The notes under the pieces were generated by a model. The model did not search any database. It worked only from the letters and a program-made list of their open reading frames with translations, and had not been told where the DNA came from. Of a stretch of DNA of 64,000 nucleotides, positions 1 to 63,870 are shown piece after piece. Each line of letters opens with the position of its first letter. Positions within the stretch are counted from its first letter, which is position 1. This stretch comes from Zeus faber (taxonomy: Eukaryota > Chordata > Actinopteri > Zeiformes > Zeidae): positions 1,860,001 through 1,924,000 of the forward strand of contig CAUIJY010000068.1 in NCBI GenBank assembly GCA_960531495.1, read 5' to 3'. Position numbers and translations under genes: made by a program.

Positions 1-13
1 GTTGTAGGTCCTT

Positions 14-3783: not shown

Positions 3784-3991
3784 ATAAAATGTATTTTTCG
3801 AGTTATGATCATTTTCATCATTATGTGTACATGTGGGAAAAAACGCATTTTCAGCCGATTTAAACGTCGAAAAGGGGAATTGCTTAAACGCTTCAGTCAT
3901 TACTCTGTGTGACAGTGTCAGACAGTTTAAATACAATGGTGAACTAGTATATGCTGCTAAAGTGTAGTTTGTCAACCAGTTTTAGGCCCAT
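3784..3991 (+). repeat. Edge-to-core junction monomer (chimeric A)
   Basis: The head is edge type (ATAAAATGTATTTTTCGAG). From about 3,820 onward the monomer is core type (TCATTATGTGTACATGTGGG, AAAAGGGGAATTGC, GGTGAACTAGTATATG). The switch lies in the stretch GATCATTTTCATCA that both families share. From here to base 64000 every monomer is core type. Confidence 0.85.
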
Positions 3992-4199
3992 CTAACATGT
4001 ATTTGTCGAGTTATGATCATTTTCATCATTATGTGTACATGTGGGAAAAAACGCATTTTCAGCCGATTTAAACGTCGAAAAGGGGAATTGCTTAAACGCT
4101 TCAGTCATTACTCTGTGTGACAGTGTCAGACAGTTTAAATACAATGGTGAACTAGTATATGCTGCTAAAGCGTTGTTTGTCAAACAGTTTTAGGCCCAT
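3992..4199 (+). repeat. Reference core A monomer (208 bp)
   Basis: Monomer landmarks in order: head CTAACATGTATTTGTCGAG with GATCATTTTCATCA; GTACATGTGGG followed by an A6 tract and CGCATTTTCAGCCG; TTTAAACGTCGAAAAGGGG; AACGCTTCAGTCATTACTC; the dyad around TGACAGTGTCA; GACAGTTTAAATACAATGG; GAACTAGTATATGCTGC; tail GTTTTAGGCCCAT. By hand count this copy has 77 G+C of 208 (37%) and 7 CpG against about 7.0 expected. This copy is the 'last A' subtype, with AAAGCGTTGTTTGTCAAAC at its end, as in most A monomers that precede a B. Other A subtypes have AAAGTGTTG or AAAGTGTAG there. Confidence 0.95.
4113..4133. other. Imperfect 21-bp dyad inside the A monomer (typical copy)
   Basis: TGACA-G-TGTCA is a perfect inverted repeat. 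Extended to 21 bp it has 9 of 10 arm positions paired, centred on the G at 4123 (monomer positions 122-142). It recurs in every standard A monomer. Variants weaken it: copies reading CTTTGATACAGTGTCAG (such as the A monomers at 8466 and 10293) and copies with GACAGTGACAG. It could be a protein-binding dyad or a small hairpin. No function is known to me. Confidence 0.6.
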
Positions 4200-4395
4200 A
4201 CAACATGTATTTGTCGAGGTATGAGCATTTTCAGAACATTGGACGGTTTGCTGTCTAGCTGAATTAGAGAAACACCGAACCATTGTCTCTTCAGAGGTGA
4301 ATGATTCAGAATGCTGCAGTACAGCATTGAAATTTAATTAATATGATGAACTATTATGTGCTTCCTAAGTTTTTCTCTCAGATTTCTATGCCCAT
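4200..4395 (+). repeat. Reference core B1 monomer (196 bp, first B of a pair)
   Basis: Head ACAACATGTATTTGTCGAGG with TATGAGCATTTTCAGAAC, then ATTGGACGGTTTGCTGTC, AGCTGAATTAGAGAAACACC, GAACCATTGTCTCTTCAGAGG, GAATGCTGCAGTACAGCAT, AATTTAATTAATATGATGAAC, and tail TCTCAGATTTCTATGCCCAT. The B1 subtype nearly always follows a 'last A'. The first 35 bp or so and the last 55 bp or so are recognisably related to A. The middle is not clearly alignable to A by eye. Confidence 0.93.
4311..4327. other. Short hairpin-forming motif inside the B monomer (typical copy)
   Basis: ATGCTG and CAGCAT form a 6-bp stem around a CAGTA loop, and the motif contains a CTGCAG site. It recurs in most B monomers. Copies reading GCTGCAGGACAGCAT (for example in the B starting at 5008) keep the stem and change the loop. 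Edge B' units read CTGCAGTACACCAT, which breaks one stem pair. Confidence 0.5.
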
Positions 4396-4591
4396 CTAAC
4401 ATGTATTTCTGGAGTTATTATCATTTTCAGAACTTGTGACGGTTTGCTGTCTAGCTGAATTAGAGAAACACCGAACCATTGTCTCTTCAGAGGTGAATGA
4501 TTCAGAATGCTGCAGTACAGCATAGAAATTTAATTAATATGATGAACTATTATGTGCTTCTTAAGTGTTTCTCACAGATTTCTAGGCCCAT
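4396..4591 (+). repeat. Reference core B2 monomer (196 bp, second B of a pair)
   Basis: Differs from B1 mainly in the head (CTAACATGTATTTCTGGAG, then AGAACTTGTGACGG) and often in the tail (CTTCTTAAGTGTTTCTCACAG with TTTCTAGGCCCAT). Apart from its CTGG, the B2 head matches the A head almost base for base up to GATCATTTTCA, after which the two diverge. In the right half of the core, B2-type units also occur as single B directly after A (36827, 40903, 44572, 45392, 47830, 53727, 57581). Confidence 0.92.
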
Positions 4592-5607
4592 CTAACATGT
4601 ATTTGTGGAGTTATGATCATTTTCATCATTGTGTGCACATGTGGGAAAAAACGCATTTTCAGCCGATTTAAACGTCGAAAAGGGGAATTGGTTAAACGCT
4701 TTAGTCATTACTCTGTGTGACAGTGTCAGACAGTTTAAATACAATGGTGAACTAGTATATGCTGCTAAAGTGTAGTTTGTCAACCAGTTTTAGGCCCATC
4801 TAACATGTATTTGTCGAGTTATGATCATTTTCATCATTATGTGTACATGTGGGAAAAAACGCATTTTCAGCCGATTTAAACGTCGAAAAGGGGAATTGCT
4901 TAAACGCTTCAGTCATTACTCTGTGTGACAGTGTCAGACAGTTTAAATACAATGGTGAACTAGTATATGCTGCTAAAGCGTTGTTTGTCAAACAGTTTTA
5001 GGCCCATACAACATGTATTTGTCGAGGTATGAGCATTTTCAGAACATTGGACGGTTTGCTGTCTAGCTGAATTAGAGAAACACCGAACCATTGTCTCTTC
5101 AGAGGTGAATGATTCAGAATGCTGCAGGACAGCATAGAAATTTTATTAATATGATGAACTATTATGTGCTTCCTAAGTTTTTCTCTCAGATTTCTATGCC
5201 CATCTAACATGTATTTCTGGAGTTATGATCATTTTCAGAACTTGTGACGGTTTGCTGTCCAGCTGAATTAGAGAAACACCGAACCATTGTCTCTTCAGAG
5301 GTGAATGATTCAGAATGCTGCAGTACAGCATAGAAATTTTATTAATATGATGAACTATTATGTGCTTCCTAAGTTTTTCTCTCAGATTTCTATGCCCATC
5401 TAACATGTATTTGCGGAGTTAGGATCATTTTCATCATAGTGTGCACATGTGGGAAAAAACGCATTTTCAGCCGATTTAAACGTCGAAAAGGGGAATTGGT
5501 TAAACGCTTCAGTCATTACTCTGTGTGACAGTGACAGACAGTTTAAATACAATGGTGAACTAGTATATGCTGCTAAAGTGTTGTTTGTCAACCAGTTTTA
5601 GGCCCAT

Positions 5608-5815
5608 ACAACATGTATTTGTTGAGGTATGATCATTTTCATCATTATGTGTACATGTGGGAAAAAACGCATTTTCAGCCGATTTAAACGTCGAAAAGGG
5701 GAATTGCTTAAACGCTTCAGTCATTACTCTGTGTGACAGTGTCAGACAGTTTAAATACAATGGTGAACTAGTATATGCTGCTAAAGCGTTGTTTGTCAAA
5801 CAGTTTTAGGCCCAT
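5608..5815 (+). repeat. Chimeric A monomer with a B1 head
   Basis: The unit starts with the B1-type head (ACAACATGTATTTG, GAGGTATGATC) and switches to A sequence at CATTTTCATCATTATG. The join falls within the CATTTTCA shared by A and B. The same structure occurs at 36411 and 40487. Such units are expected from unequal exchange or conversion in the shared head. Confidence 0.75.
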
Positions 5816-6818
5816 ACAACATGTATTTGTCGAGGTATGAGCATTTTCAGAACATTGGACGGTTTGCTGTCTAGCTGAATTAGAGAAACACCGAACCATT
5901 GTCTCTTCAGAGGTGAATGATTCAGAATGCTGCAGTACAGCATTGAAATTTAATTAATATGATGAACTATTATGTGCTTCCTTAGTTTTTCTCTCAGATT
6001 TCTATGCCCATCTAACATGTATTTCTGGAGTTATTATCATTTTCAGAACTTGTGACGGTTTGCTGTCTAGCTGAATTAGAGAAACACCGAACCATTGTCT
6101 CTTCAGAGGTGAATGATTCAGAATGCTGCAGTACTTCATAGAAATTTAATTAATATGATGAACTATTATGTGCTTCTTAAGTGTTTCTCAAGATTTCTAG
6201 GCCCATCTAACATGTATTTGTGGAGTTATGATCATTTTCATCATTGTGTGCACATGTGGGAAAAAACGCATTTTCAGCCGATTTAAACGTCGAAAAGGGG
6301 AATTGGTTAAACGCTTTAGTCATTACTCTGTGTGACAGTGTCAGACAGTTTAAATACAATGGTGAACTAGTATATGCTGCTAAAGTGTAGTTTGTCAACC
6401 AGTTTTAGGCCCATCTAACATGTATTTGTCGAGTTATGATCATTTTCATCATTATGTGTACATGTGGGAAAAAACGCATTTTCAGCCGATTTAAACGTCG
6501 AAAAGGGGAATTGCTTAAACGCTTCAGTCATTACTCTGTGTGACAGTGTCAGACAGTTTAAATACAATGGTGAACTAGTATATGCTGCTAAATCGTTGTT
6601 TGTCAAACAGTTTTAGGCCCATACAACATGTATTTGTCGAGGTATGAGCATTTTCAGAACATTGGACGGTTTGCTGTCTAGCTGAATTAGAGAAAAACCG
6701 AACCATTGTCTCTTCAGAGGTGAATGATTCAGAATGCTGCAGTACAGCATAGAAATTTTATTAATATGATGAACTATTATGTGCTTCCTAAGTTTTTCTC
6801 TCAGATTTCTATGCCCAT

Positions 6819-9077
6819 CTAACATGTATTTGTGGAGTTAGGATCATTTTCATCATAGTGTGCACATGTGGGAAATACGCATTTTCAGCCGATTTAAACG
6901 TCGAAAAGGGGAATTGATTAAATGCTTCAGTCATTACTCTGTGTGACAGTGTCAGACAGTTTAAATACAATGGTGAACTAGTATATGCTGCTAAAGTGTT
7001 GTTTGTCAAACAGTTTTAGGCCCATCTAACATGTATTTGTCGAGTTATGGTCATTTTCATCATTATGTGCACATGTGGGAAAAAACGCATTTTCAGCCGA
7101 TTTAAACGTCGAAAAGGGGAATTGCTTAAACGCTTCAGTCATTACTCTGTGTGACAGTGTCAGACAGTTTAAATACAATGGTGAACTAGTATATGCTGCT
7201 AAAGTGTTGTTTGTCAATCAGTTTTAGGCCCATCTAACATGTATTTGTGGAGTTAGGATCATTTTCATCATAGTGTGCACATGTGGGAAAAAACGCATTT
7301 TCAGCCGATTTAAACGTCGAAAAGGGGAATTGATTAAACGCTTCAGTCATTACTCTGTGTGACAGTGTCAGACAGTTTAAATACAATGGTGAACTAGTAT
7401 ATGCTGCTAAAGTGTTGTTTGTCAACCAGTTTTAGGCCCATCTAACATGTATTTGTCGAGTTATGATCATTTTCATCATTATGTGTACATGTGGGAAAAA
7501 ACGCATTTTCAGCCGATTTAAACGTCGAAAAGGGGAATTGCTTAAACGCTTCAGTCATTACTCTGTGTGACAGTGTCAGACAGTTTAAATACAATGGTGA
7601 ACTAGTATATGCTGCTAAAGCGTTGTTTGTCAAACAGTTTTAGGCCCATACAACATGTATTTGTCGAGGTATGAGCATTTTCAGAACATTGGACGGTTTG
7701 CTGTCTAGCTGAATTAGAGAAACACCGAACCATTGTCTCTTCAGAGGTGAATGATTCAGAATGCTGCAGGACAGCATAGAAATTTTATTAATATGATGAA
7801 CATTGTGAACATTATGTGCTTCCTAAGTTTTTCTCTCAGATTTCTATGCCCATCTAACATGTATTTCTGGAGTTATGATCATTTTCAGAACTTGTGACGG
7901 TTTGCTGTCTAGCTGAATTAGAGAAACACCGAACCATTGTCTCTTCAGAGGTGAATGATTCAGAATGCTGCAGTACAGCATAGAAATTTAATTAATATGA
8001 TGAACTATTATGTGCTTCCTAAGTTTTTCTCTCAGATTTCTATGCCCATCTAACATGTATTTGTGGAGTTAGGATCATTTTCATCATAGTGTGCACATGT
8101 GGGAAAAAACGCATTTTCAGCCGATTTAAACGTCGAAAAGGGGAATTGGTTAAACGCTTCAGTCATTACTCTGTGTGACAGTGACAGACAGTTTAAATAC
8201 AATGGTGAACTAGTATATGCTGCTAAAGTGTTGTTTGTCAACCAGTTTTAGGCCCATCTAACATGTATTTGTCGAGTTATGATCATTTTCATCATTATGT
8301 GTACATGTGGGAAAAAACGCATTTTCAGCCGATTTAAACGTCGAAAAGGGGAATTGCTTAAACGCTTCAGTCATTACTCTGTGTGACAGTGTCAGACAGT
8401 TTAAATACAATGGTGAACTAGTATATGCTGCTAAAGCGTTGTTTGTCAAACAGTTTTAGGCCCATACAACATGTATTTGTCGAGTTATGATCATTTTCAT
8501 CATTATGTGCACATGTGGGAAAAAACGCATTTTCAGCCGATTTAAACGTCGAAAAGGGGAATTGCTTAAACGCTTCAGTCATTACTCTTTGATACAGTGT
8601 CAGACAGTTTAAATACAATGGTGAACTAGTATATGCTGCTAAAGTGTTGTTTGTCAAACAGTTTTAGGCCCATGTAAAATGTATTTGTCGAGTTATGATC
8701 ATTTTCATCATTGTGTGCACATGTGGGAAAAAACGCATTTTCAGCCGATTTAAACGTCGAAAAGGGGAATTGCTTAAACGCTTCAGTCATTACTCTGTGT
8801 GACAGTGTCAGACAGTTAAAATACAATGGTGAACTAGTATATGCTGCTAAAGTGTTGTTTGTCAAACAGTTTTAGGCCCATACAACATGTATTTGTCGAG
8901 GTATGAGCATTTTCAGAACATTGGACGGTTTGCTGTCTAGCTGAATTAGAGAAACACCGAACCATTGTCTCTTCAGAGGTGAATGATTCAGAATGCTGCA
9001 GTACAGCATAGAAATTTAATTAATATGATGAACTATTATGTGCTTCCTAAGTTTTTCTCTCAGATTTCTATGCCCAT
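6819..9077 (+). repeat. Core blocks AAAABB, AAAAB
   Basis: Monomer starts: A 6819 (207 bp, GGGAAATACGC), 7026, 7234, 7442; B 7650 (204 bp), 7854; A 8050, 8258, 8466, 8674; B 8882. The B at 7650 is 8 bp longer than usual because GAACATT is partly duplicated (GATGAACATTGTGAACATTATG). It is the only long B in the core. Confidence 0.88.
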
Positions 9078-10292
9078 CTAACATGTATTTGTGGAGTTAG
9101 GATCATTTTCATCATAGTGTGCACATGTGGGAAAAAACGCATTTTCAGCCGATTTAAACGTCGAAAAGGGGAATTGCTTAAACGCTTCAGTCATTACTCT
9201 GTGTGACAGTGTCAGACAGTTTAAATACAATGGTGAACTAGTATATGCTGCTAAAGTGTTGTTTGTCAACCAGTTTTAGGCCCATCTAACATGTATTTGT
9301 CGAGTTATGATCATTTTCATCATTATGTGTACATGTGGGAAAAAACGCATTTTCAGCCGATTTAAACGTCGAAAAGGGGAATTGCTTAAACGCTTCAGTC
9401 ATTACTCTGTGTGACAGTGTCAGACAGTTTAAATACAATGGTGAACTAGTATATGCTGCTAAAGCGTTGTTTGTCAAACAGTTTTAGGCCCATACAACAT
9501 GTATTTGTCGAGGTATGAGAACATTGGACGGTTTGCTGTCTAGCTGAATTAGAGAAACACCGAACCATTGTCTCTTCAGAGGTGAATGATTCAGAATGCT
9601 GCAGTACAGCATTGAAATTTAATTAATATGATGAACTATTATGTGCTTCTTAAGTGTTTCTCACAGATTTCTAGGCCAATCTAACATGTATTTGTGGAGT
9701 TATGATCATTTTCATCATTGTGTGCACATGTTGGAAAAAACGCATTTTCAGCCGATTTAAACGTCGAAAAGGGGAATTGGTTAAACGCTTCAGTCATTAC
9801 TCTGTGTGACAGTGTCAGACAGTTTAAATACAATGGTGAACTAGTATATGCTGCTAAAGTGTTGTTTGTCAAACAGTTTTAGGCCCATGTAAAATGTATT
9901 TGTCGAGTTATGATTATTTTCATCATTGTGTGCACATGTGGGAAAAAACGCATTTTCAGCCGATTTAAACGTCGAAAAGGGGAATTGCTTAAACGCTTCA
10001 GTCATTACTCTGTGTGACAGTGTCAGACAGTTTAAATACAATGGTGAACTAGTATATGCTGCTAAAGCGTTGTTTGTCAAACAGTTTTAGGCCCATACAA
10101 CATGTATTTGTCGAGGTATGAGCATTTTCAGAACATTGGACGGTTTGCTGTCTAGCTGAATTAGAGAAACACCGAACCATTGTCTCTTCAGAGGTGAATG
10201 ATTCAGAATGCTGCAGTACAGCATAGAAATTTAATTAATATGATGAACTATTATGTGCTTCCTAAGTTTTTCTCTCAGATTTCTATGCCCAT
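9078..10292 (+). repeat. Core blocks AAB (187-bp B), AAB
   Basis: Monomer starts: A 9078, 9286; B 9494 (187 bp); A 9681, 9889; B 10097. The 9-bp loss in the B at 9494 marks this block. The A at 9681 carries GCACATGTTGG in place of GCACATGTGGG and follows the variant tail TCTAGGCCAATC. The same combination follows the short B at 12752, 14786, 15597 and 27851, so the whole stretch was copied together. Confidence 0.88.
9494..9680 (+). repeat. B monomer with 9-bp deletion, variant 1
   Basis: The head reads GGTATGAGAACATTGG where the standard reads GGTATGAGCATTTTCAGAAC. The missing CATTTTCAG lies between two AG dinucleotides, consistent with replication slippage or microhomology deletion. Other copies: 12752-12938, 14786-14972, 15597-15783 and 27851-28037, all in the left half of the core. 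Confidence 0.85.
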
Positions 10293-13200
10293 CTAACATG
10301 TATTTGTGGAGTTAGGATCATTTTCATCATAGTGTGCACATGTGGGAAAAAACGCATTTTCAGCCGATTTAAACGTCGAAAAGGGGAATTGGTTAAACGC
10401 TTCAGTCATTACTCTTTGATACAGTGTCAGACAGTTTAAATACAATGGTGAACTAGTATATGCTGCTAAAGTGTTGTTTGTCAACCAGTTTTAGGCCCAT
10501 CTAACATGTATTTGTCGAGTTATGATCATTTTCATCATTATGTGTACATGTGGGAAAAACGCATTTTCAGCCGATTTAAACGTCGAAAAGGGGAATTGCT
10601 TAAACGCTTCAGTCATTACTCTGTGTGACAGTGTCAGACAGTTTAAATACAATGGTGAACTAGTATATGCTGCTAAAGTGTTGTTTGTCAAACAGTTTTA
10701 GGCCCATGTAAAATGTATTTGTCGAGTTATGATCATTTTCATCATTGTGTGCACATGTGGGAAAAAACGCATTTTCAGCCGATTTAAACGTCGAAAAGGG
10801 GAATTGCTTAAACGCTTCAGTCATTACTCTGTGTGACAGTGTCAGACAGTTTAAATACAATGGTGAACTAGTATATGCTGCTAAAGTGTTGTTTGTCAAA
10901 CAGTTTTAGGCCCATGTAAAATGTATTTGTCGAGTTATGATCATTTTCATCATTGTGTGCACATGTGGGAAAAAACGCATTTTCAGCCGATTTAAACGTC
11001 GAAAAGGGGAATTGCTTAAACGCTTCAGTCATTACTCTGTGTGACAGTGTCAGACAGTTTAAATACAATGGTGAACTAGTATATGCTGCTAAAGCGTTGA
11101 TTGTCAAACAGAGTTAGGCCCATACAACATGTATTTGTCGAGGTATGAGCATTTTCAGAACATTGGACGGTTTGCTGTCTAGCTGAATTAGAGAAACACC
11201 GAACCATTGTCTCTTCAGAGGTGAATGATTCAGAATGCTGCAGTACAGCATAGAAATTTAATTAATATGATGAACTATTATGTGCTTCCTAAGTTTTTCT
11301 CTCAGATTTCTATGCCCATCTAACATGTATTTGTGGAGTTAGGATCATTTTCATCATAGTGTGCACATGTGGGAAAAAACGCATTTTCAGCCGATTTAAA
11401 CGTCGAAAAGGGGAATTGGTTAAACGCTTCAGTCATTACTCTTTGATACAGTGTCAGACAGTTTAAATACAATGGTGAACTAGTATATGCTGCTAAAGTG
11501 TTGTTTGTCAAACAATTTTAGGCCCATGTAAAATGTATTTGTCGAGTTATGATCATTTTCATCATTGTGTGCACATGTGGGAAAAAACGCATTTTCAGCC
11601 GATTTAAACGTCGAAAAGGGGAATTGCTTAAACGCTTCAGTCATTACTCTGTGTGACAGTGTCAGACAGTTTAAATACAATGGTGAACTAGTATATGCTG
11701 CTAAAGTGTTGTTTGTCAACCAGTTTTAGGCCCATCTAACATGTATTTGTCGAGTTATGATCATTTTCATCATTATGTGTACATGTGGGAAAAAATGCAT
11801 TTTCAGCCGATTTAAACGTCGAAAAGGGGAATTGCTTAAACGCTTCAGTCATTACTCTGTGTGACAGTGTCAGACAGTTTAAATACAATGGTGAACTAGT
11901 ATATGCTGCTAAAGCGTTGTTTGTCAAACAGTTTTAGGCCCATACAACATGTATTTGTCGAGATATGAGCATTTTCAGAACATTGGACGGTTTGCGGTCT
12001 AGCTGAATTAGAGAAACACCGAACCATTGTCTCTTCAGAGGTGAATGATTCAGAATGCTGCAAGACAGCATAGAAATTTTATTAATATGATGAACTATTA
12101 TGTGCTTCCTAAGTTTTTCTCTCAGATTTCTATGCCCATCTAACATGTATTTCTGGAGTTATGGTCATTTTCAGAACTTGTGACGGTTTGCTGTCTAGCT
12201 GAATTAGAGAAACACCGAACCATTGTCTCTTCAGAGGTGAATGATTCAGAATGCTGCAGTACAGCATAGAAATTTAATTAATATGATGAACTATTATGTG
12301 CTTCCTAAGTTTTTCTCTCAGATTTCTATGCCCATCTAACATGTATTTGTGGAGTTAGGATCATTTTCATCATAGTGTGCACATGTGGGAAAAAACGCAT
12401 TTTCAGCCGATTTAAACGTCGAAAAGGGGAATTGCTTAAACGCTTCAGTCATTACTCTGTGTGACAGTGTCAGACAGTTTAAATACAATGGTGAACTAGT
12501 ATATGCTGCTAAAGTGTTGTTTGTCAACCAGTTTTAGGCCCATCTAACATGTATTTGTCGAGTTATGATCATTTTCATCATTATGTGTACATGTGGGAAA
12601 AAACGCATTTTCAGCCGATTTAAACGTCGAAAAGGGGAATTGCTTAAACGCTTCAGTCATTACTCTGTGTGACAGTGTCAGACAGTTTAAATACAATGGT
12701 GAACTAGTATATGCTGCTAAAGCGTTGTTTGTCAAACAGTTTTAGGCCCATACAACATGTATTTGTCGAGGTATGAGAACATTGGACGGTTTGCTGTCTA
12801 GCTGAATTAGAGAAACACCGAACCATTGTCTCTTCAGAGGTGAATGATTCAGAATGCTGCAGTACAGCATTGAAATTTAATTAATATGATGAACTATTAT
12901 GTGCTTCTTAAGTGTTTCTCACAGATTTCTAGGCCAATCTAACATGTATTTGTGGAGTTATGATCATTTTCATCATTGTGTGCACATGTTGGAAAAAACG
13001 CATTTTCAGCCGATTAAACGTCGAAAAGGGGAATTGGTTAAACGCTTCAGTCATTACTCTGTGTGACAGTGTCAGACAGTTTAAATACAATGGTGAACTA
13101 GTATATGCTGCTAAAGTGTTGTTTGTCAAACAGTTTTAGGCCCATCTAACATGTATTTGTCGAGTTATGGTCATTTTCATCATTATGTGCACATGTGGGA

Positions 13201-14369
13201 AAAAACGCATTTTCAGCCGATTTAAACGTCGAAAAGGGGAATTGCTTAAACGCTTCAGTCATTACTCTGTGTGACAGTGTCAGACAGTTTAAATACAATG
13301 GTGAACTAGTATATGCTGCTAAAGTGTTGTTTGTCAATCAGTTTTTGGCCCATCTAACATGTATTTGTCGAGTTATGATCATTTTCATCATTATGTGCAC
13401 ATGTGGGAAAAAACGCATTTTCAGCCGATTTAAACGTCGAAAAGGGGAATTGGTTAAACGCTTCAGTCATTACTCTTTGATACAGTGTCAGACAGTTTAA
13501 ATACAATGGTGAACTAGTATATGCTGCTAAAGTGTTGTTTGTCAAACAGTTTTAGGCCCATGTAAAATGTATTTGTCGAGTTATGATCATTTTCATCATT
13601 GTGTGCACATGTGGGAAAAAACGCATTTTCAGCCGATTTAAACGTCGAAAAGGGGAATTGCTCAAACGCTTCAGTCATTACTCTGTGTGACAGTGTCAGA
13701 CAGTTTAAATACAATGGTGAACTAGTTAATGCTGCTAAAGTGTTGTTTGTCAACCAGTTTTAGGCCCATCTAACATGTATTTGTCGAGTTATGATCATTT
13801 TCATCATTATGTGTACATGTGGGAAAAAACGCATTTTCAGCCGATTTAAACGTCGAAAAGGGGAATTGCTTAAACGCTTCAGTCATTACTCTGTGTGATA
13901 GTGTCAGACAGTTTAAATACAATGGTGAACTAGTATATGCTGCTAAAGCGTTGTTTGTCAAACAGTTTTAGGCCCATACAACATGTATTTGTCGAGGTAT
14001 GAGCATTTTCAGAACATTGGACGGTTTGCTGTCTAGCTGAATTAGAGAAACACCGAACCATTGTCTCTTCAGAGGTGAATGATTCAGAATGCTGCAGGAC
14101 AGCATAGACATTTTATTAATATGATGAACTATTATGTGCTTCCTAAGTTTTTCTCTCAGATTTCTATGCCCATCTAACATGTATTTCTGGAGTTATGATC
14201 ATTTTCAGAACTTGTGACGGTTTGCTGTCTAGCTGAATTAGAGAAACACCGAACCATTGTGTCTTCAGAGGTGAATGATTCAGAATGCTGCAGTACAGCA
14301 TAGAAATTTAATTAATATGATGAACTATTATGTGCTTCTTAAGTGTTTCTCACAGATTTCTAGGCCCAT
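10293..14369 (+). repeat. Core blocks AAAAB, AAABB, AAB, AAAAABB (first copy of the 15.1-kb-spaced segment)
   Basis: Monomer starts: A 10293, 10501 (207 bp), 10708, 10916; B 11124; A 11320, 11528, 11736; B 11944, 12140; A 12336, 12544; B 12752 (187 bp); A 12939 (207 bp), 13146, 13354, 13562, 13770; B 13978, 14174. The segment from 10293 to about 14577 recurs at 25392 to about 29677, at an offset of 15,099, then 15,100 after a 1-bp loss near 13,012 (CGATTAAACG for CGATTTAAACG). Markers shared by both copies: GATTGTCAAACAGAGTTAG, TTTGCGGTCTAGC, GCTGCAAGACAGC, the 187-bp B and GCTCAAACG. Confidence 0.88.
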
Positions 14370-15783
14370 CTAACATGTATTTGTGGAGTTATGATCATTT
14401 TCATCATTGTGTGCACATGTGGGAAAAAACGCAATTTCAGCCGATTTAAACGTCGAAAAGGGGAATTGGTTAAACGCTTCAGTCATTACTCTTTGATACA
14501 GTGTCAGACAGTTTAAATACAATGGTGAACTAGTATATGCTGCTAAAGTGTTGTTTGTCAACCAGTTTTAGGCCCATCTAACATGTATTTGTCGAGTTAT
14601 GATCATTTTCATCATTATGTGTACATGTGGGAAAAAACGCATTTTCAGCCGATTTAAACGTCGAAAAGGGGAATTGCTTAAACGCTTCAGTCATTACTCT
14701 GTGTGACAGTGTCAGACAGTTTAAATACAATGGTGAACTAGTATATGCTGCTAAAGCGTTGTTTGTCAAACAGTTTTAGGCCCATACAACATGTATTTGT
14801 CGAGGTATGAGAACATTGGACGGTTTGCTGTCTAGCTGAATTAGAGAAACACCGAACCATTGTCTCTTCAGAGGTGAATGATTCAGAATGCTGCAGTACA
14901 GCATTGAAATTTAATTAATATGATGAACTATTATGTGCTTCTTAAGTGTTTCTCACAGATTTCTAGGCCAATCTAACATGTATTTGTGGAGTTATGATCA
15001 TTTTCATCATTGTGTGCACATGTTGGAAAAAACGCATTTTCAGCCGATTTAAACGTCGAAAAGGGGAATTGGTTAAACGCTTCAGTCATTACTCTGTGTG
15101 ACAGTGTCAGACAGTTTAAATACAATGGTGAACTAGTATATGCTGCTAAAGTGTTGTTTGTCAAACAGTTTTAGGCCCATCTAACATGTATTTGTCGAGT
15201 TATGGTCATTTTCATCATTATGTGCACATGTGGGAAAAAACGCATTTTCAGCCGATTTAAACGTCGAAAAGGGGAATTGGTTAAACGCTTCAGTCATTAC
15301 TCTTTGATACAGTGTCAGACAGTTTAAATACAATGGTGAACTAGTATATGCTGCTAAAGTGTTGTTTGTCAACCAGTTTTAGGCCCATCTAACATGTATT
15401 TGTCGAGTTATGATCATTTTCATCATTATGTGTACATGTGGGAAAAAACGCATTTTCAGCCGATTTAAACGTCGAAAAGGGGAATTGCTTAAACGCTTCA
15501 GTCATTACTCTGTGTGACAGTGTCAGACAGTTTAAATACAATGGTGAACTAGTATATGCTGCTAAAGCGTTGTTTGTCAAACAGTTTTAGGCCCATACAA
15601 CATGTATTTGTCGAGGTATGAGAACATTGGACGGTTTGCTGTCTAGCTGAATTAGAGAAACACCGAACCATTGTCTCTTCAGAGGTGAATGATTCAGAAT
15701 GCTGCAGTACAGCATTGAAATTTAATTAATATGATGAACTATTATGTGCTTCTTAAGTGTTTCTCACAGATTTCTAGGCCAAT
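14370..15783 (+). repeat. Core blocks AAB, AAAB, each closed by a 187-bp B
   Basis: Monomer starts: A 14370, 14578; B 14786 (187 bp); A 14973, 15181, 15389; B 15597 (187 bp). The stretch from 14578 is repeated from 15389 at offset 811. The A at 14370 has CGCAATTTCAG in place of CGCATTTTCAG, a marker also found at 17216, 24781 and 29470. Confidence 0.85.
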
Positions 15784-52504: not shown

Positions 52505-53922
52505 CTAACATGTATTTGTCGAGTTATGATCATTTTCATCATTGTGTGCACATGTGGGAAAAAACGCATTTTCAGCCGATTTAAACGTCGAAAAGGGGAA
52601 TTGCTTAAACGCTTCAGTCATTACTCTGTGTGACAGTGTCAGACAGTTTAAATACAATGGTGAACTAGTATATGCTGCTAAAGTGTTGTTTGTCAACCAG
52701 TTTTAGGCCCATCTAACATGTATTTGTCGAGTTATGATCATTTTCATCATTATGTGTACATGTGGGAAAAACGCATTTTCAGTCGATTTAAACGTCGAAA
52801 AGGGGAATTGCTTAAACGCTTCAGTCATTACTCTGTGTGACAGTGTCAGACAGTTTAAATACAATGGTGAACTAGTATATGCTGCTAAAGCGTTGTTTGT
52901 CAAACAGTTTTAGGCCCATACAACATGTATTTGTCGAGGTATGAGCATTTTCAGAACATTGGACGGTTTGCTGTCTAGCTGAATTAGAGAAACACCGAAC
53001 CATTGTCTCTTCAGAGGTGAATGATTCAGAATGCTGCAGTACAGCATTGAAATTTAATTAATATGATGAACTATTACGTGCTTCCTATGTTTTTCTCTCA
53101 GATTTCTATGCCCATCTAACATGTATTTCTGGAGTTTTGATCATTTTCAGAACTTGTGACGGTTTGCTGTCTAGCTGAATTAGAGAAACACCGAACCATT
53201 GTCTCGTCAGAGGTGAATGATTCAGAATGCTGCAGTACAGCATAGAAATTTAATTAATATGATGAACTATTATGTTCTTCTTAAGTGTTTCTCACAGATT
53301 TCTAGGCCCATCTAACATGTATTTGTGGAGTTATGATCATTTTCATCATTGTGTGCACATGTGGGAAAAAACGCATTTTCAGCCGATTTAAACGTCGAAA
53401 GGGGAATTGGTTAAACGCTTCAGTCATTACTCTGTGTGACAGTGTCAGACAGTTTAAATACAATGGTGAACTAGTATATGCTGCTAAAGTGTTGTTTGTC
53501 AAACAGTTTTAGGCCCATGTAAAATGTATTTGTCGAGTTATGATCATTTTCATCATTGTGTGCACATGTGGGAAAAAACGCATTTTCAGCCGATTTAAAC
53601 GTCGAAAAGGGGAATTGCTTATACGCTTCAGTCATTACTCTGTGTGACAGTGACAGACAGTTTAAATACAATGGTGAACTAGTATATGCTGCTAAAGCGT
53701 TGTTTGTCAAACAGTTTTAGGCCCATCTAACATGTATTTCTGGAGTTATGATCATTTTCAGAACTTGTGACGGTTTGCTGTCTAGCTGAATTAGAGAAAC
53801 ACCGAACCATTGTCTCTTCAGAGGTGAATGATGCAGAATGCTGCAGTACAGCATAGAAATTTAATTAATATGATGAACTATTATGTGCTTCCTAAGTTTT
53901 TCTCTCAGATTTCTATGCCCAT

Positions 53923-54130
53923 CTGACATGTATTTGTGGAGTTAGGATCATTTTCATCATTGTGTGCACATGTGGGAAAAAACGCATTTTCAGCCGATTT
54001 AAACGTCGAAAAGGGGAATTGGTAAAACGCTTTAGTCATTACTCTGTGTGACAGTGTCAGACAGTTTAAATACAATGGTGAACTGGTATATGCTGCTAAA
54101 GTGTAGTTTGTCAACCAGTTTTAGGCCCAT
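53923..54130 (+). repeat. Recombinant A monomer joining two block families
   Basis: The head (GACATGTATTTGTGG, GTTAGGATC, TCATTGTGTGCAC) matches the A monomers at 45588 and 57777. The middle and tail (GGAATTGGTAAAACGC, GAACTGGTATATG, AAAGTGTAGTTTG) match those at 43948 and 61632. Sequence on the left continues the repeat shared with 57165-57776. Sequence on the right continues that shared with 61709-62243 (offset 7,709). The crossover lies between about 53,965 and 54,020. Confidence 0.78.
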
Positions 54131-54338
54131 CTAACATGTATTTGTCGAGTTATGATCATTTTCATCATTATGTGTACATGTGGGGAAAAACGCATTTTCA
54201 GCCGATATAAACGTCGAAAAGGGGAATTGCTTAAACGCTTCAGTCATTACTCTGTGTGACAGTGACAGACAGTTTAAATACAATGGTGAACTAGTATATG
54301 CTGCTAAAGCGTTGTTTGTCAAACAGTTTTAGGCCCAT

Positions 54339-54926
54339 ACAACATGTATTTGTCGAGGTATGAGCATTTTCAGAACATTGGACGGTTTGCTGTCTAGCTG
54401 AATTAGAGAAACACTGAACCATTGTCTCTTCAGAGGTGAATGATTCAGAATGCTGCAGGACAGCATAGAAATTTTATTAATATGATGAACTATTATGTGC
54501 TTCCTAAGTTTTTCTCTCAGATTTCTATGCCCATCTAACATGTATTTCTGGAGTTATGATCATTTTCAGAACTTGTGACGGTTTGCTGTCTAGCTGAATT
54601 AGAGAAACACCGAACCATTGTCTCTTCAGAGGTGAATGATTCAGAATGCTGCAGGACAGCATAGAAATTTTATTAATATGATGAACTATTATGTGCTTCC
54701 TAAGTTTTTCTCTCAGATTTCTATGCCCATCTAACATGTATTTCTGGAGTTATGATCATTTTCAGAACTTGTGACGGTTTGCTGTCTAGCTGAATTAGAG
54801 AAACACCGAACCATTGTCTCTTCAGAGGTGAATGATTCAGAATGCTGCAGTACAGCATAGAAATTTAATTAATATGATGAACTATTATGTGCTTCTTAAG
54901 TGTTTCTCACAGATTTCTAGGCCCAT
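54339..54926 (+). repeat. BBB: the only triple B run
   Basis: B monomers at 54339 (B1), 54535 and 54731 (B2). The middle one is a B2-B1 hybrid: B2 head (CTGGAG, GAACTTGTGACGG), then the B1-type body and tail (GCTGCAGGACAGC, AAATTTTATT, CTTCCTAAG). The hybrid at 5204-5399 has the same make-up in a BB pair. A single unequal exchange between B1 and B2 of neighbouring pairs would give this arrangement. Confidence 0.82.
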
Positions 54927-56357
54927 CTAACATGTATTTGTGGAGTTATGATCATTTTCATCATTGTGTGCACATGTGGGAAAAAACGCATTTTCAGCCG
55001 ATTTAAACGTCGAAAAGGGGAATTTCTTAAACGCTTCAGTCATTACTCTGTGTGACAGTGTCAGACAGTTTAAATACAATGGTGAACTAGTATATGCTGC
55101 TAAAGTGTTGTTTGTCAACCAGTTTTAGGCCCATCTAACATGTATTTGTCGAGTTATGATCATTTTCATCATTATGTGTACATGTGGGAAAAAACGCATT
55201 TTCAGCCGATTTAAACGTCGAAAAGGGGAATTGCTTAAACGCTTCAGTCATTACTCTGTGTGACAGTGTCAGACAGTTTAAATACAATGGTGAACTAGTA
55301 TATGCTGCTAAAGCGTTGTTTGTCAAACAGTTTTAGGCCCATACAACATGTATTTGTCGAGTTATGGTCATTTTCATCATTATGTGCACATGTGGGAAAA
55401 AACGCATTTTCAGCCGATTTAAACGTCGAAAAGGGAAATTGCTTAAACGCTTCAGTCATTACTCTTTGATACAGTGTCAGACAGTTTAAATACAATGGTG
55501 AACTAGTATATGCTGCTAAAGTGTAGTTTGTCAAACAGTTTTAGGCCCATGTAAAATGTATTTGTCGAGTTATGATCATTTTCATCATTGTGTGCACATG
55601 TGGGAAAAAACGCATTTTCAGCCGATTTAAACGTCGAAAAGGGGAATTGCTTAAACGCTTCAGTCATTACTCTGTGTGACAGTGTCAGACAGTTTAAATA
55701 CAATGGTGAACTAGTATATGCTGCTAAAGTGTTGTTTGTCAACCAGTTTTAGGCCCATCTAACATGTATTTGTCGAGTTATGATCATTTTCATCATTATG
55801 TGTACATGTGGGAAAAACGCATTTTCAGTCGATTTAAACGTCGAAAAGGGGAATTGCTTAAACGCTTCAGTCATTACTCTGTGTGACAGTGTCAGACAGT
55901 TTAAATACAATGGTGAACTAGTATATGCTGCTAAAGCGTTGTTTGTCAAACAGTTTTAGGCCCATACAACATGTATTTGTCGAGGTATGAGCATTTTCAG
56001 AACATTGGACGGTTTGCTGTCTAGCTGAATTAGAGAAACACTGAACCATTGTCTCTTCAGAGGTGAATGATTCAGAATGCTGCAGGACAGCATAGAAATT
56101 TTATTAATATGATGAACTATTATGTGCTTCCTAAGTTTTTCTCTCAGATTTCTATGCCCATCTAACATGTATTTCTGGAGTTATGATCATTTTCAGAACT
56201 TGTGACGGTTTGCTGTCTAGCTGAATTAGAGAAACACCGAACCATTGTCTCTTCAGAGGTGAATGATTCAGAATGCTGCAGTACAGCATAGAAATTTAAT
56301 TAATATGATGAACTATTATGTGCTTCTTAAGTGTTTCTCACAGATTTCTAGGCCCAT
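54927..56357 (+). repeat. 1,431-bp AAAAABB unit, copy 4
   Basis: Monomer starts: A 54927, 55135, 55343, 55551, 55759 (207 bp); B 55966, 56162. It matches copy 3 at offset 3,853. A private change is GGAATTTCTTAAACG near 55,023 where other copies read GGAATTGCTTAAACG. Confidence 0.92.
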
Positions 56358-59300
56358 CTAACATGTATTTGTCGAGTTATGATCATTTTCATCATTGTGT
56401 GCACATGTGGGAAAAAACGCATTTTCAGCCGATTTAAACGTCGAAAAGGGGAATTGCTTAAACGCTTCAGTCATTACTCTGTGTGACAGTGTCAGACAGT
56501 TTAAATACAATGGTGAACTAGTATATGCTGCTAAAGTGTTGTTTGTCAACCAGTTTTAGGCCCATCTAACATGTATTTGTCGAGTTATGATCATTTTCAT
56601 CATTATGTGTACATGTGGGAAAAACGCATTTTCAGTCGATTTAAACGTCGAAAAGGGGAATTGCTTAAACGCTTCAGTCATTACTCTGTGTGACAGTGTC
56701 AGACAGTTTAAATACAATGGTGAACTAGTATATGCTGCTAAAGCGTTGTTTGTCAAACAGTTTTAGGCCCATACAACATGTATTTGTCGAGGTATGAGCA
56801 TTTTCAGAACATTGGACGGTTTGCTGTCTAGCTGAATTAGAGAAACACCGAACCATTGTCTCTTCAGAGGTGAATGATTCAGAATGCTGCAGTACAGCAT
56901 TGAAATTTAATTAATATGATGAACTATTACGTGCTTCCTATGTTTTTCTCTCAGATTTCTATGCCCATCTAACATGTATTTCTGGAGTTTTGATCATTTT
57001 CAGAACTTGTGACGGTTTGCTGTCTAGCTGAATTAGAGAAACACCGAACCATTGTCTCGTCAGAGGTGAATGATTCAGAATGCTGCAGTACAGCATAGAA
57101 ATTTAATTAATATGATGAACTATTATGTTCTTCTTAAGTGTTTCTCACAGATTTCTAGGCCCATCTAACATGTATTTGTGGAGTTATGATCATTTTCATC
57201 ATTGTGTGCACATGTGGGAAAAAACGCATTTTCAGCCGATTTAAACGTCGAAAAGGGGAATTGGTTAAACGCTTCAGTCATTACTCTGTGTGACAGTGTC
57301 AGACAGTTTAAATACAATGGTGAACTAGTATATGCTGCTAAAGTGTTGTTTGTCAAACAGTTTTAGGCCCATGTAAAATGTATTTGTCGAGTTATGATCA
57401 TTTTCATCATTGTGTGCACATGTGGGAAAAAACGCATTTTCAGCCGATTTAAACGTCGAAAAGGGGAATTGCTTAAACGCTTCAGTCATTACTCTGTGTG
57501 ACAGTGACAGACAGTTTAAATACAATGGTGAACTAGTATATGCTGCTAAAGCGTTGTTTGTCAAACAGTTTTAGGCCCATCTAACATGTATTTCTGGAGT
57601 TATGATCATTTTCAGAACTTGTGACGGTTTGCTGTCTAGCTGAATTAGAGAAACACCGAACCATTGTCTCTTCAGAGGTGAATGATGCAGAATGCTGCAG
57701 TACAGCATAGAAATTTAATTAATATGATGAACTATTATGTGCTTCCTAAGTTTTTCTCTCAGATTTCTATGCCCATCTGACATGTATTTGTGGAGTTAGG
57801 ATCATTTTCATCATTGTGTGCACATGTGGGAAAAAACGCATTTTCAGCCGATTTAAACGTCGAAAAGGGAATTGGTTAAACGCTTCAGTCATTACTCTTT
57901 GATACAGTGTCAGACAGTTTAAATACAATGGTGAACTAGTATATGCTGCTAAAGAGTTGTTTGTCAACCAGTTTTAGGCCCATCTAACATGTATTTGTCG
58001 AGTTATGATCATTTTCATCATTGTGTGCACATGTGGGAAAAAACGCATTTTCAGCCGATTTAAACGTCGAAAAGGGGAATTGCTTAAACGCTTCAGTCAT
58101 TACTCTGTGTGACAGTGTCAGACAGTTTAAATACAATGGTGAACTAGTATATGCTGCTAAAGCGTTGTTTGTCAAACAGTTTTAGGCCCATACAACATGT
58201 ATTTGTCGAGGTATGAGCATTTTCAGAACATTGCTGTCTAGCTGAATTAGAGAAACACCGAACCATTGTCTCTTCAGAGGTGAATGATTCAGAATGCTGC
58301 AGTACAGCATAGAAATTTAATTAATATGATGAACTATTATGTGCTTCCTAAGTTTTTCTCTCAGATTTCTATGCCCATCTAACATGTATTTGTGGAGTTA
58401 GGATCATTTTCATCATAGTGTGCACATGTGGGAAAAAACGCATTTTCAGCCGATTTAAACGTCGAAAAGGGGAATTGGTTAAACGCTTCAGTCATTACTC
58501 TTTGATACAGTGTCAGACAGTTTAAATACAATGGTGAACTAGTATATGCTGCTAAAGTGTTGTTTGTCAACCAGTTTTAGGCCCATCTAACATGTATTTG
58601 TGGAGTTATGATCATTTTCATCATTGTGTGCACATGTGGGAAAAAACGCATTTTCAGCCGATTTAAACGTCGAAAAGGGGAATTGGTTAAACGCTTCAGT
58701 CATTACTCTGTGTGACAGTGTCAGACAGTTTAAATACAATGGTGAACTAGTATATGCTGCTAAAGTGTAGTTTGTCAACCAGTTTTAGGCCCATCTAACA
58801 TGTATTTGTCGAGTTATGATCATTTTCATCATTATGTGTACATGTGGGAAAAAACGCATTTTCAGCCGATTTAAACGTCGAAAAGGGGAATTGGTTAAAC
58901 GCTTCAGTCATTACTCTGTGTGACAGTGTCAGACAGTTTAAATACAATGGTGAACTAGTATATGCTGCTAAAGCTTTGTTATTCAAACAGTTTTAGGCCC
59001 ATACAACATGTATTTATCGAGGTATGAGCATTTTCAGAACATTGGACGGTTTGCTGTCTAGCTGAATTAGAGAAACACCGAACCATTGTCTCTTCAGAGG
59101 TGAATGATTCAGAATGCTGCAGTACAGCATTGAAATTTAATTAATATGATGAACTATTATGTGCTTCCTAAGTTTTTCTCTCAGATTTCTATGCCCATCT
59201 AACATGTATTTCTGGAGTTATGATCATTTTCAGAACTTGTGACGGTTTGCTGTGTAGTGAATTAGAGAAACACCGAACCATTGTCTCTTCAGAGGTGAAT

Positions 59301-59393
59301 GATTCAGAATGCTGCAGTACAGCATAGAAATTTAATTAATATGATGAACTATTATGTGCTTCTTAAGTGTTTCTCACAGATTTCTAGGCCCAT
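56358..59393 (+). repeat. Core blocks AABB, AAB, AAB, AAABB
   Basis: Monomer starts: A 56358, 56566 (207 bp); B 56773, 56969; A 57165, 57373; B 57581; A 57777 (207 bp), 57984; B 58192 (187 bp); A 58379, 58587, 58795; B 59003, 59199 (195 bp). The left part repeats 52505-53922 and the right part repeats 48026-49642. The change of partner therefore occurs near 57,777, where this region joins two segments that lie apart and in the opposite order elsewhere in the window. Confidence 0.87.
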
Positions 59394-60200
59394 CTAACAT
59401 GTATTTGTGGAGTTATGATCATTTTCATCATTGTGTGCACATGTGGGAAAAAACGCATTTTCAGCCGATTTAAACGTCGAAAAGGGGAATTGGTAAAACG
59501 CTTTAGTCATTACTCTGTGTGACAGTGACAGACAGTTTAAATACAATGGTGAACTAGTATATGCTGCTAAAGTGTAGTTTGTCAACCAGTTTTAGGCCCA
59601 TCTAACATGTATTTGTCGAGTTATGATCATTTTCATCATTATGTGTACATGTGGGAAAAAACGCATTTTCAGCCGATTTAAACGTCGAAAAGGGGAATTG
59701 GTTAAACGCTTCAGTCATTACTCTGTGTGACAGTGTCAGACAGTTTAAATACAATGGTGAACTAGTATATGCTGCTAAAGCTTTGTTATTCAAACAGTTT
59801 TAGGCCCATACAACATGTATTTATCGAGGTATGAGCATTTTCAGAACATTGGACGGTTTGCTGTCTAGCTGAATTAGAGAAACACCGAACCATTGTCTCT
59901 TCAGAGGTGAATGATTCAGAATGCTGCAGTACAGCATTGAAATTTAATTAATATGATGAACTATTATGTGCTTCCTAAGTTTTTCTCTCAGATTTCTATG
60001 CCCATCTAACATGTATTTCTGGAGTTATGATCATTTTCAGAACTTGTGACGGTTTGCTGTGTAGTGAATTAGAGAAACACCGAACCATTGTCTCTTCAGA
60101 GGTGAATGATTCAGAATGCTGCAGTACAGCATAGAAATTTAATTAATATGATGAACTATTATGTGCTTCTTAAGTGTTTCTCACAGATTTCTAGGCCCAT
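59394..60200 (+). repeat. AABB block with 195-bp second B
   Basis: Monomer starts: A 59394, 59602; B 59810, 60006 (195 bp). The stretch 58795-59393 is repeated at 59602-60200 (offset 807), including GCTTTGTTATTC, TATTTATCGAGG and GTGTAGTGAATTAG. This is a local tandem duplication of one AABB tetramer. Confidence 0.87.
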
Positions 60201-61631
60201 CTAACATGTATTTGTGGAGTTATGATCATTTTCATCATTGTGTGCACATGTGGGAAAAAACGCATTTTCAGCCGATTTAAACGTCGAAAAGGGGAATTGG
60301 TAAAACGCTTTAGTCATTACTCTGTGTGACAGTGACAGACAGTTTAAATACAATGGTGAACTAGTATATGCTGCTAAAGTGTTGTTTGTCAACCAGTTTT
60401 AGGCCCATCTAACATGTATTTGTCGAGTTATGATCATTTTCATCATTATGTGTACATGTGGGAAAAAACGCATTTTCAGCCGATTTAAACGTCGAAAAGG
60501 GGAATTGCTTAAACGCTTCAGTCATTACTCTGTGTGACAGTGTCAGACAGTTTAAATACAATGGTGAACTAGTATATGCTGCTAAAGCGTTGTTTGTCAA
60601 ACAGTTTTAGGCCCATACAACATGTATTTGTCGAGTTATGGTCATTTTCATCATTATGTGCACATGTGGGAAAAAACGCATTTTCAGCCGATTTAAACGT
60701 CGAAAAGGGAAATTGCTTAAACGCTTCAGTCATTACTCTTTGATACAGTGTCAGACAGTTTAAATACAATGGTGAACTAGTATATGCTGCTAAAGTGTAG
60801 TTTGTCAAACAGTTTTAGGCCCATGTAAAATGTATTTGTCGAGTTATGATCATTTTCATCATTGTGTGCACATGTGGGAAAAAACGCATTTTCAGCCGAT
60901 TTAAACGTCGAAAAGGGGAATTGCTTAAACGCTTCAGTCATTACTCTGTGTGACAGTGTCAGACAGTTTAAATACAATGGTGAACTAGTATATGCTGCTA
61001 AAGTGTTGTTTGTCAACCAGTTTTAGGCCCATCTAACATGTATTTGTCGAGTTATGATCATTTTCATCATTATGTGTACATGTGGGAAAAACGCATTTTC
61101 AGTCGATTTAAACGTCGAAAAGGGGAATTGCTTAAACGCTTCAGTCATTACTCTGTGTGACAGTGTCAGACAGTTTAAATACAATGGTGAACTAGTATAT
61201 GCTGCTAAAGCGTTGTTTGTCAAACAGTTTTAGGCCCATACAACATGTATTTGTCGAGGTATGAGCATTTTCAGAACATTGGACGGTTTGCTGTCTAGCT
61301 GAATTAGAGAAACACTGAACCATTGTCTCTTCAGAGGTGAATGATTCAGAATGCTGCAGGACAGCATAGAAATTTTATTAATATGATGAACTATTATGTG
61401 CTTCCTAAGTTTTTCTCTCAGATTTCTATGCCCATCTAACATGTATTTCTGGAGTTATGATCATTTTCAGAACTTGTGACGGTTTGCTGTCTAGCTGAAT
61501 TAGAGAAACACCGAACCATTGTCTCTTCAGAGGTGAATGATTCAGAATGCTGCAGTACAGCATAGAAATTTAATTAATATGATGAACTATTATGTGCTTC
61601 TTAAGTGTTTCTCACAGATTTCTAGGCCCAT
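60201..61631 (+). repeat. 1,431-bp AAAAABB unit, copy 5
   Basis: Monomer starts: A 60201, 60409, 60617, 60825, 61033 (207 bp); B 61240, 61436. All family markers are present. The first A is the GGTAAAACG type with GACAGTGACAG, as in copy 2. Confidence 0.92.
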
Positions 61632-62439
61632 CTAACATGTATTTGTGGAGTTATGATCATTTTCATCATTGTGTGCACATGTGGGAAAAAACGCATTTTC
61701 AGCCGATTTAAACGTCGAAAAGGGGAATTGGTAAAACGCTTTAGTCATTACTCTGTGTGACAGTGTCAGACAGTTTAAATACAATGGTGAACTGGTATAT
61801 GCTGCTAAAGTGTAGTTTGTCAACCAGTTTTAGGCCCATCTAACATGTATTTGTCGAGTTATGATCATTTTCATCATTATGTGTACATGTGGGAAAAAAC
61901 GCATTTTCAGCCGATATAAACGTCGAAAAGGGGAATTGCTTAAACGCTTCAGTCATTACTCTGTGTGACAGTGACAGACAGTTTAAATACAATGGTGAAC
62001 TAGTATATGCTGCTAAAGCGTTGTTTGTCAAACAGTTTTAGGCCCATACAACATGTATTTGTCGAGGTATGAGCATTTTCAGAACATTGGACGGTTTGCT
62101 GTCTAGCTGAATTAGAGAAACACTGAACCATTGTCTCTTCAGAGGTGAATGATTCAGAATGCTGCAGGACAGCATAGAAATTTTATTAATATGATGAACT
62201 ATTATGTGCTTCCTAAGTTTTTCTCTCAGATTTCTATGCCCATCTAACATGTATTTCTGGAGTTATGATCATTTTCAGAACTTGTGACGGTTTGCTGTCT
62301 AGCTGAATTAGAGAAACACCGAACCATTGTCTCTTCAGAGGTGAATGATTCAGAATGCTGCAGTACAGCATAGAAATTTAATTAATATGATGAACTATTA
62401 TGTGCTTCTTAAGTGTTTCTCACAGATTTCTAGGCCCAT
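61632..62439 (+). repeat. 808-bp AABB block
   Basis: Monomer starts: A 61632, 61840; B 62048, 62244. The first A has GGTAAAACGC and GAACTGGTATATG. The second has CAGCCGATATAAACG in place of CAGCCGATTTAAACG and GACAGTGACAG, both also seen at 46606 and 54131. From about 61,709 to 62,243 it matches 54,000-54,534. Confidence 0.88.
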
Positions 62440-63870
62440 CTAACATGTATTTGTGGAGTTATGATCATTTTCATCATTGTGTGCACATGTGGGAAAAAAC
62501 GCATTTTCAGCCGATTTAAACGTCGAAAAGGGGAATTGCTTAAACGCTTCAGTCATTACTCTGTGTGACAGTGTCAGACAGTTTAAATACAATGGTGAAC
62601 TAGTATATGCTGCTAAAGTGTTGTTTGTCAACCAGTTTTAGGCCCATCTAACATGTATTTGTCGAGTTATGATCATTTTCATCATTATGTGTACATGTGG
62701 GAAAAAACGCATTTTCAGCCGATTTAAACGTCGAAAAGGGGAATTGCTTAAACGCTTCAGTCATTACTCTGTGTGACAGTGTCAGACAGTTTAAATACAA
62801 TGGTGAACTAGTATATGCTGCTAAAGCGTTGTTTGTCAAACAGTTTTAGGCCCATACAACATGTATTTGTCGAGTTATGGTCATTTTCATCATTATGTGC
62901 ACATGTGGGAAAAAACGCATTTTCAGCCGATTTAAACGTCGAAAAGGGAAATTGCTTAAACGCTTCAGTCATTACTCTTTGATACAGTGTCAGACAGTTT
63001 AAATACAATGGTGAACTAGTATATGCTGCTAAAGTGTAGTTTGTCAAACAGTTTTAGGCCCATGTAAAATGTATTTGTCGAGTTATGATCATTTTCATCA
63101 TTGTGTGCACATGTGGGAAAAAACGCATTTTCAGCCGATTTAAACGTCGAAAAGGGGAATTGCTTAAACGCTTCAGTCATTACTCTGTGTGACAGTGTCA
63201 GACAGTTTAAATACAATGGTGAACTAGTATATGCTGCTAAAGTGTTGTTTGTCAACCAGTTTTAGGCCCATCTAACATGTATTTGTCGAGTTATGATCAT
63301 TTTCATCATTATGTGTACATGTGGGAAAAACGCATTTTCAGTCGATTTAAACGTCGAAAAGGGGAATTGCTTAAACGCTTCAGTCATTACTCTGTGTGAC
63401 AGTGTCAGACAGTTTAAATACAATGGTGAACTAGTATATGCTGCTAAAGCGTTGTTTGTCAAACAGTTTTAGGCCCATACAACATGTATTTGTCGAGGTA
63501 TGAGCATTTTCAGAACATTGGACGGTTTGCTGTCTAGCTGAATTAGAGAAACACTGAACCATTGTCTCTTCAGAGGTGAATGATTCAGAATGCTGCAGGA
63601 CAGCATAGAAATTTTATTAATATGATGAACTATTATGTGCTTCCTAAGTTTTTCTCTCAGATTTCTATGCCCATCTAACATGTATTTCTGGAGTTATGAT
63701 CATTTTCAGAACTTGTGACGGTTTGCTGTCTAGCTGAATTAGAGAAACACCGAACCATTGTCTCTTCAGAGGTGAATGATTCAGAATGCTGCAGTACAGC
63801 ATAGAAATTTAATTAATATGATGAACTATTATGTGCTTCTTAAGTGTTTCTCACAGATTTCTAGGCCCAT
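62440..63870 (+). repeat. 1,431-bp AAAAABB unit, copy 6
   Basis: Monomer starts: A 62440, 62648, 62856, 63064, 63272 (207 bp); B 63479, 63675. All family markers are present, and the first A is the GCTTAAACG type, as in copies 3 and 4 (offset 11,366 from copy 3). Confidence 0.92.

Follow-up and report, generated by a model that had tools for sequence, protein, structure and literature searches.

The stretch of DNA analysed here, referred to below as the window, comprises 64,000 nucleotides of Zeus faber (assembly GCA_960531495.1, contig CAUIJY010000068.1, positions 1,860,001 to 1,924,000 of the forward strand) and contains a satellite array built from two monomers, A and B. Sequence was also read around the window, namely the next 200 kb on its right and 20 kb on its left, and all positions are given in window coordinates. 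Monomers were delimited at a conserved GCCCAnnnAAnATGTATTT anchor, and this splitting covers the whole window. The main A/B array extends from 3778 to 107234 (~104 kb), with contiguous monomers lying head-to-tail in one orientation; the window holds its left 58%, and the remaining 42% lies to the right. At 107234 the array ends in two odd pieces and one further B reaching 107843, which was counted in the run statistics, while the last A-run stops at this disturbed stretch. The features needed first are the following.

3778..63864, plus strand: the window part of the main A/B array, with 196 complete A monomers (~208 bp) and 99 B monomers (~196 bp) in 66 blocks.
3986..4024, plus strand: an example of the 39-bp head shared by the monomers (linker), whose sequence depends on the junction.

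A and B are distantly related, having their first ~39-45 bp (the head or linker) in common and bodies which align only weakly. Inside the window the mean divergence is 3.6% between A monomers and 5.0% between B monomers. No open reading frame of at least 120 amino acids and no minus-strand self match was found within the window, and Rfam at its gathering threshold returned nothing for window positions 1-12000.

The 66 A-runs between 3778 and 63864 contain two (30 runs), three (18), four (8) or five (10) monomers, and none consists of a single A. The 66 intervening B-runs contain one (34), two (31) or three (1) monomers. The A at 63865 is truncated by the window edge and, with the downstream sequence, is the start of a two-A run. 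These counts reproduce exactly those of the original prediction, made from the window alone, which had also held that a random order would give many single As. This was borne out when the order of A and B in the window was shuffled 3000 times, single-A runs numbering 22.3 on average and never fewer than 9, against zero observed. The absence of single As from the window is thus far from the shuffle expectation.

The remainder of the same array beyond 63864 was analysed in the same terms. Its 59 A-runs comprise 16 of a single A, 31 of two, 8 of three, 3 of four and 1 of five, and its B-runs have lengths of one (33), two (20), three (1) and four (5); the five four-B runs, at 65909, 70167, 91675, 96119 and 106035, are confined to this remainder. 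Along the main array a single A is first met at 66693, in the 70th A-run, and the blocks with a single A span 66.7-105.2 kb. Mean A difference is 3.6% in the window part, 3.5% beyond it and 3.6% between the two, and because it is equal within and between the parts, both were treated as one array; segments of 3-4 kb are also common to both sides of the window boundary, at 97-98.6% identity. The whole array thus has 125 A-runs, of which 16 (0.128) are single and 61 are of length two, the longest being of five. The statement that A never stands alone therefore holds for 3778-63864 and fails elsewhere, both beyond 63864 and in a related flank array at 1-3777.

These single As bear directly on the possibility that a lone A is selected against or mechanistically forbidden, for instance by a binding protein or a nucleosome phasing that needs at least two As. 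Such a reading would account for the 0 of 66 window runs where shuffling gives a mean of 22.3, and for a whole array that still stays below its shuffled expectation. In contrast, 16 of the 59 runs in the array remainder are single, in 5 sequence groups (at most 2 edits, average linkage), and single As occur in the flank array and in 5 of the 14 A-runs of another array at 179883-190060. Selection or prohibition is refuted as a general rule, and we consider it scarcely credible in any form. The original prediction had likewise offered constraint on the blocks as an alternative to block copying, and had itself named single As at ordinary frequency in the rest of the array as the finding that would tell against it; given their presence in that remainder, this alternative is not supported. 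We regard it instead as highly probable that the array is an ordinary two-monomer satellite, in which the single-A gap reflects turnover by unequal exchange viewed through a narrow window and is not a rule.

Copying of whole segments is evident in the window from four long direct repeats.

9527..14810, plus strand: a 5.3-kb repeat, with a direct copy at 24627-29910 (99.6% identity).
15175..21349, plus strand: a 6.2-kb repeat, with a direct copy at 27429-33604 (99.4% identity).
33148..37471, plus strand: a 4.3-kb repeat, with a direct copy at 37224-41547 (99.7% identity), shifted by 4076 bp.
50684..54568, plus strand: a 3.9-kb repeat, with a direct copy at 54537-58412 (99.0% identity).

At a tolerance of at most 2 edits per monomer, 47 of the 66 window blocks have a twin of the same structure, and the 66 A-runs collapse into 27 groups (14 of two As, 7 of three, 4 of four and 2 of five), of which the lineages with three or more As number 13; the grouping gives 39 groups at 0.5 edits and 21 at 4. 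The proposal that the array is built by copying blocks is well supported by the 3.9-6.2 kb recurrences and by these near-identical twins. The 66 blocks are thus not independent, as the twinned blocks and the small number of groups indicate, and shuffling, which presumes independent draws, is the wrong null for blocks that are copied. The shuffle test was accordingly dropped as a basis for the verdict, since shuffling ignores block copying. For the same reason the window pattern was misleading: an apparent rule that extended over 60 kb and lay far beyond shuffle expectation did not survive the addition of a further 43 kb of the array. The copied segments, which are 99.0-99.7% alike, exceed the likeness of their monomers (3.6% difference between As, 5.0% between Bs), as in higher-order repeats (HORs). 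A regular unit period along the array was not found, the window holding 8 block structures in irregular order. One B lineage, spread over five blocks (at 9488, 12746, 14780, 15591 and 27845), is recognisable by the loss of 9 bp from its copy of the head, which leaves monomers of 187 bp.

The original prediction had also described subtypes locked to their position in a block (first A, last A, B1 and B2). The lock is real, but much of it resides in junction-specific sites of the head and tail and not in whole-monomer subtypes. The shared head differs by junction: joints from A to B carry an 'ac' type in 59 of 66 cases, the remaining 7 having the B-to-B form; all 33 B-to-B joints carry a CTGGAG core; and column 21 is G in 63 of the 66 joints from B to A. 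Correspondingly, 62 of the 66 first As in the window have this G (the first-A head mark) and a tail mark comprising three sites is present in 65 of the 66 last As. The position lock is thus largely a property of the joints, and the specificity of the linkers for their junction points to exchange mostly in register.

These marks also allow departures from the usual order to be recognised, of which three examples are given.

42511..43941, plus strand: a five-A block of fused appearance, in which the second A has a last-A tail and the third an A-to-B linker, as if two and three As had been joined with loss of a B.
41912..42119, plus strand: a hybrid A behind another A in a two-A run, with first-A head and body and a last-A tail.
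9488..9674, plus strand: a single B of hybrid appearance, as if reduced from two to one, its head being that of B1 and its tail of B2 type.

A last-A tail is present on nine internal As of the window, and in all nine cases the next A has a head of the A-to-B form. These fusion-like joints occur in 3 of the 8 four-A runs and 6 of the 10 five-A runs, and so divide 9 of these 18 runs into 2+2 or 2+3. They read as if shorter runs had fused after loss of the B between them. The B-to-A head mark is found on six As which are not the first of their run, and the As at 34165 and 38241, both in two-A runs, combine it with a last-A tail, although this head mark is one site only. Single Bs of the kind seen at 9488, B1 at the head and B2-type at the tail, number ten in the window. 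The objection that the homology of first and last As is too low for exchange was considered and rejected, as their consensus sequences in two-A runs differ in 6 of 209 alignment columns and hybrid-like monomers do exist. Among the 16 single As beyond the window, 13 have G at column 21 and 15 have the last-A tail, which by these head and tail marks is as would be expected of hybrids between a first and a last A.

From these joints we infer how individual exchanges took place, and in which direction, as follows. The array would have been founded by a few multi-monomer units with two or more As side by side. Unequal exchange between homologous stretches, together with the copying of segments, would have shaped it since, presumably with a preference for register. 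Occasional exchange out of register, within A bodies or within the linker, would have lengthened, shortened or fused A-runs, and single As would have arisen as hybrids of a first A and a last A. The window would then cover a part of the array in which no single-A product survives, and the rest of the array would be one in which their frequency is ordinary. A narrower version of this scheme, in which the ancestor was a first-A last-A B unit of ~612 bp and longer runs are fusions or insertions, is suggested by the predominance of runs of two (30 of the 66 window runs and 61 of all 125), by the first-A heads and last-A tails that bracket nearly all window runs (62/66 and 65/66), and by the internal last-A tails that split half of the four- and five-A runs. 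As the five-A blocks hold several distinct A subtypes, a longer ancestor with later deletions could also be envisaged, and we propose the dimer founder tentatively, at slightly less than even chances.

The ability of turnover to leave a window without single As was assessed with neutral unequal-exchange models, in which simulated arrays were accepted on run-length statistics; the acceptance windows and the founders were our own choices. The jobs run numbered 260000 and 42241 for the first two window-sized sets, 129341 for a set with 9-18 lineages of at least three As, and 68461 for the whole array. Zero single A was obtained in 10 of 1345 and 103 of 1627 accepted runs of the first two sets, in 844 of 7833 with 9-18 lineages and in 350 of 3868 with 13-17 lineages. 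At w of 0.1 or less, the proportion was 589 of 2919 (9-18 lineages), and under the four most in-register settings (w of 0.1 or less, r of 0.01 or less) it was 429 of 1014. As the simulation outcome varies with register preference in this manner, the window alone is indecisive. In the whole-array simulations, the fraction of single As had a median of 0.155, and 42% of the 5379 accepted runs were at or below the observed 0.128; at w = 1 this was true of 11% of 1929.

Several results nevertheless weigh against the view that the gap is ordinary turnover. The simulations begin with founders in which no A stands alone, and take no account of sequence. The fit to the window depends on the assumed in-register preference, because register-blind runs (w = 1) are almost never free of single As (28 of 2748, and 13 of 1553 at 13-17 lineages). 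Under tighter acceptance, window-sized simulations seldom lacked both single As and runs of six or more As, doing so in 38 of 2640 cases, and in 16 of 411 under the most in-register settings; an absence of A-runs longer than five was likewise seen in 768 of the 5379 accepted whole-array simulations. Shuffling of the whole array (2000 shuffles) gave 46.3 single As on average and a minimum of 27, compared with the 16 observed. Furthermore, the single-free stretch at the array start takes up the first 69 of 125 A-runs. When run order was permuted 5000 times, the longest single-free gap was 57 and never 69, and a single-free stretch of at least 66 of 125 runs, a threshold slightly under the observed 69, arose in 65 of 1539 simulations matched for the single-A fraction. 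A neutral explanation, which the original prediction had asked to see simulated, therefore succeeds in part: the whole-array fraction of single As is reproduced, while a single-free stretch of the length of the window is uncommon. Judged by these models, the single As appear clustered beyond the usual neutral outcome, and this clustering would fit either local homogenisation or two domains.

Two domains, split near 66 kb, would consist of a left part recently homogenised from single-free founders, or locally constrained, and a more rearranged right part. The late appearance of the first single A in the 70th run (66693), the contrast of 0 of 66 with 16 of 59 single runs, the restriction of all five four-B runs to the region beyond the window and the permuted maximum of 57 all point in this direction. 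In contrast, As differ no more between the parts than within them, the 3-4 kb segments mentioned above cross the boundary at high identity, and the 65 of 1539 matched simulations with a comparable stretch make the clustering uncommon, not extreme. A division of this kind is thus possible though unlikely. A stronger version, in which the left ~60% (to ~66.7 kb) is separately maintained and purged of single As, perhaps for a function needing at least two adjacent As, and the right 40% has escaped, we hold to be very improbable. Turnover by unequal exchange, mostly in register, remains our preferred explanation of the single-A gap.

Primate alpha satellite HORs consist of nucleosome-length monomers of distinct types, arranged head-to-tail and copied as multi-monomer units, with variants usually ascribed to unequal exchange. 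The array of Zeus faber resembles them in its distinct, head-to-tail monomer types and in the copying of multi-monomer units as units. It differs in its monomer lengths, 208 and 196 bp as opposed to ~171 bp, and in having 8 block structures and no fixed unit period. The core of the CENP-B box (TTCGNNNNANNCGGG), which in alpha satellite is present in a subset of monomers, had no match in the window at up to 2 mismatches.

The HORs of Meloidogyne chitwoodi and M. fallax contain divergent monomers with 17- and 20-bp boxes and a 50-bp overlap at junctions; these conserved segments were proposed to mediate rearrangement, and one box is CENP-B-box-like (PMC3694981). The linker of 39-45 bp, common to unlike monomers and placed at the junctions, is comparable, although the monomers themselves are others, there is no CENP-B-box-like match here, and the comparison is one of descriptions only. 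The array thus works like other satellites whose monomers have segments in common at their junctions, those of Meloidogyne being one case (PMC3694981). On a small scale it illustrates cleanly how dissimilar monomers may be re-joined through a common linker, with fusion-like and hybrid-like joints left readable. In Tribolium castaneum the TCAST satellite is reported to have ~360-bp monomers of five diverged subfamilies that are intermingled and form heterogeneous HORs (PMC7598501). Again by description only, the present array is similar in its intermingling of diverged monomer types and its heterogeneous HORs, and differs in having monomers of 208 and 196 bp and not five subfamilies of ~360 bp.

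A text search of the literature for four strings of 16-19 bases from the satellite found no matching paper, and a literature search on the monomer lengths combined found none matching all of them. One 401-base piece had no match among plasmid sequences, and one 29-base motif had none in an exact search of genome_contigs and viral_contigs.

The main array is preceded in the window by the flank array referred to above.

1..3777, plus strand: a related, more diverged array of A and C monomers with one B; its A consensus differs by 8.1% from that of the main array.

In the C monomer (~252 bp), the initial 184-189 bp are those of a B and are followed directly by the final 66 bp of an A; a pair of A and C, 460 bp long, could thus represent an A+B+A that has been shortened. 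Single As occur in this flank array at 465, 925 and 2246, each flanked by two C copies. A further A, at position 8, does not count as single, since it is preceded by the terminal 148 bp of an A immediately left of the window; apart from these, the 20 kb to the left of the window yielded no A or B core. A second array of this C type (C of ~252 bp), the one with the single As noted above, lies ~72 kb past the end of the main array. The DNA next to the main array is AT-rich, the 8-kb bins that begin at 112, 120, 136 and 144 kb having a GC content of 0.23-0.25. Two 10-kb pieces from this side, 114001-124000 and 134001-144000 (contig positions 1974001-1984000 and 1994001-2004000), consist nearly throughout of a degenerate GAAAGATT/GAAAGAAT short-period satellite.

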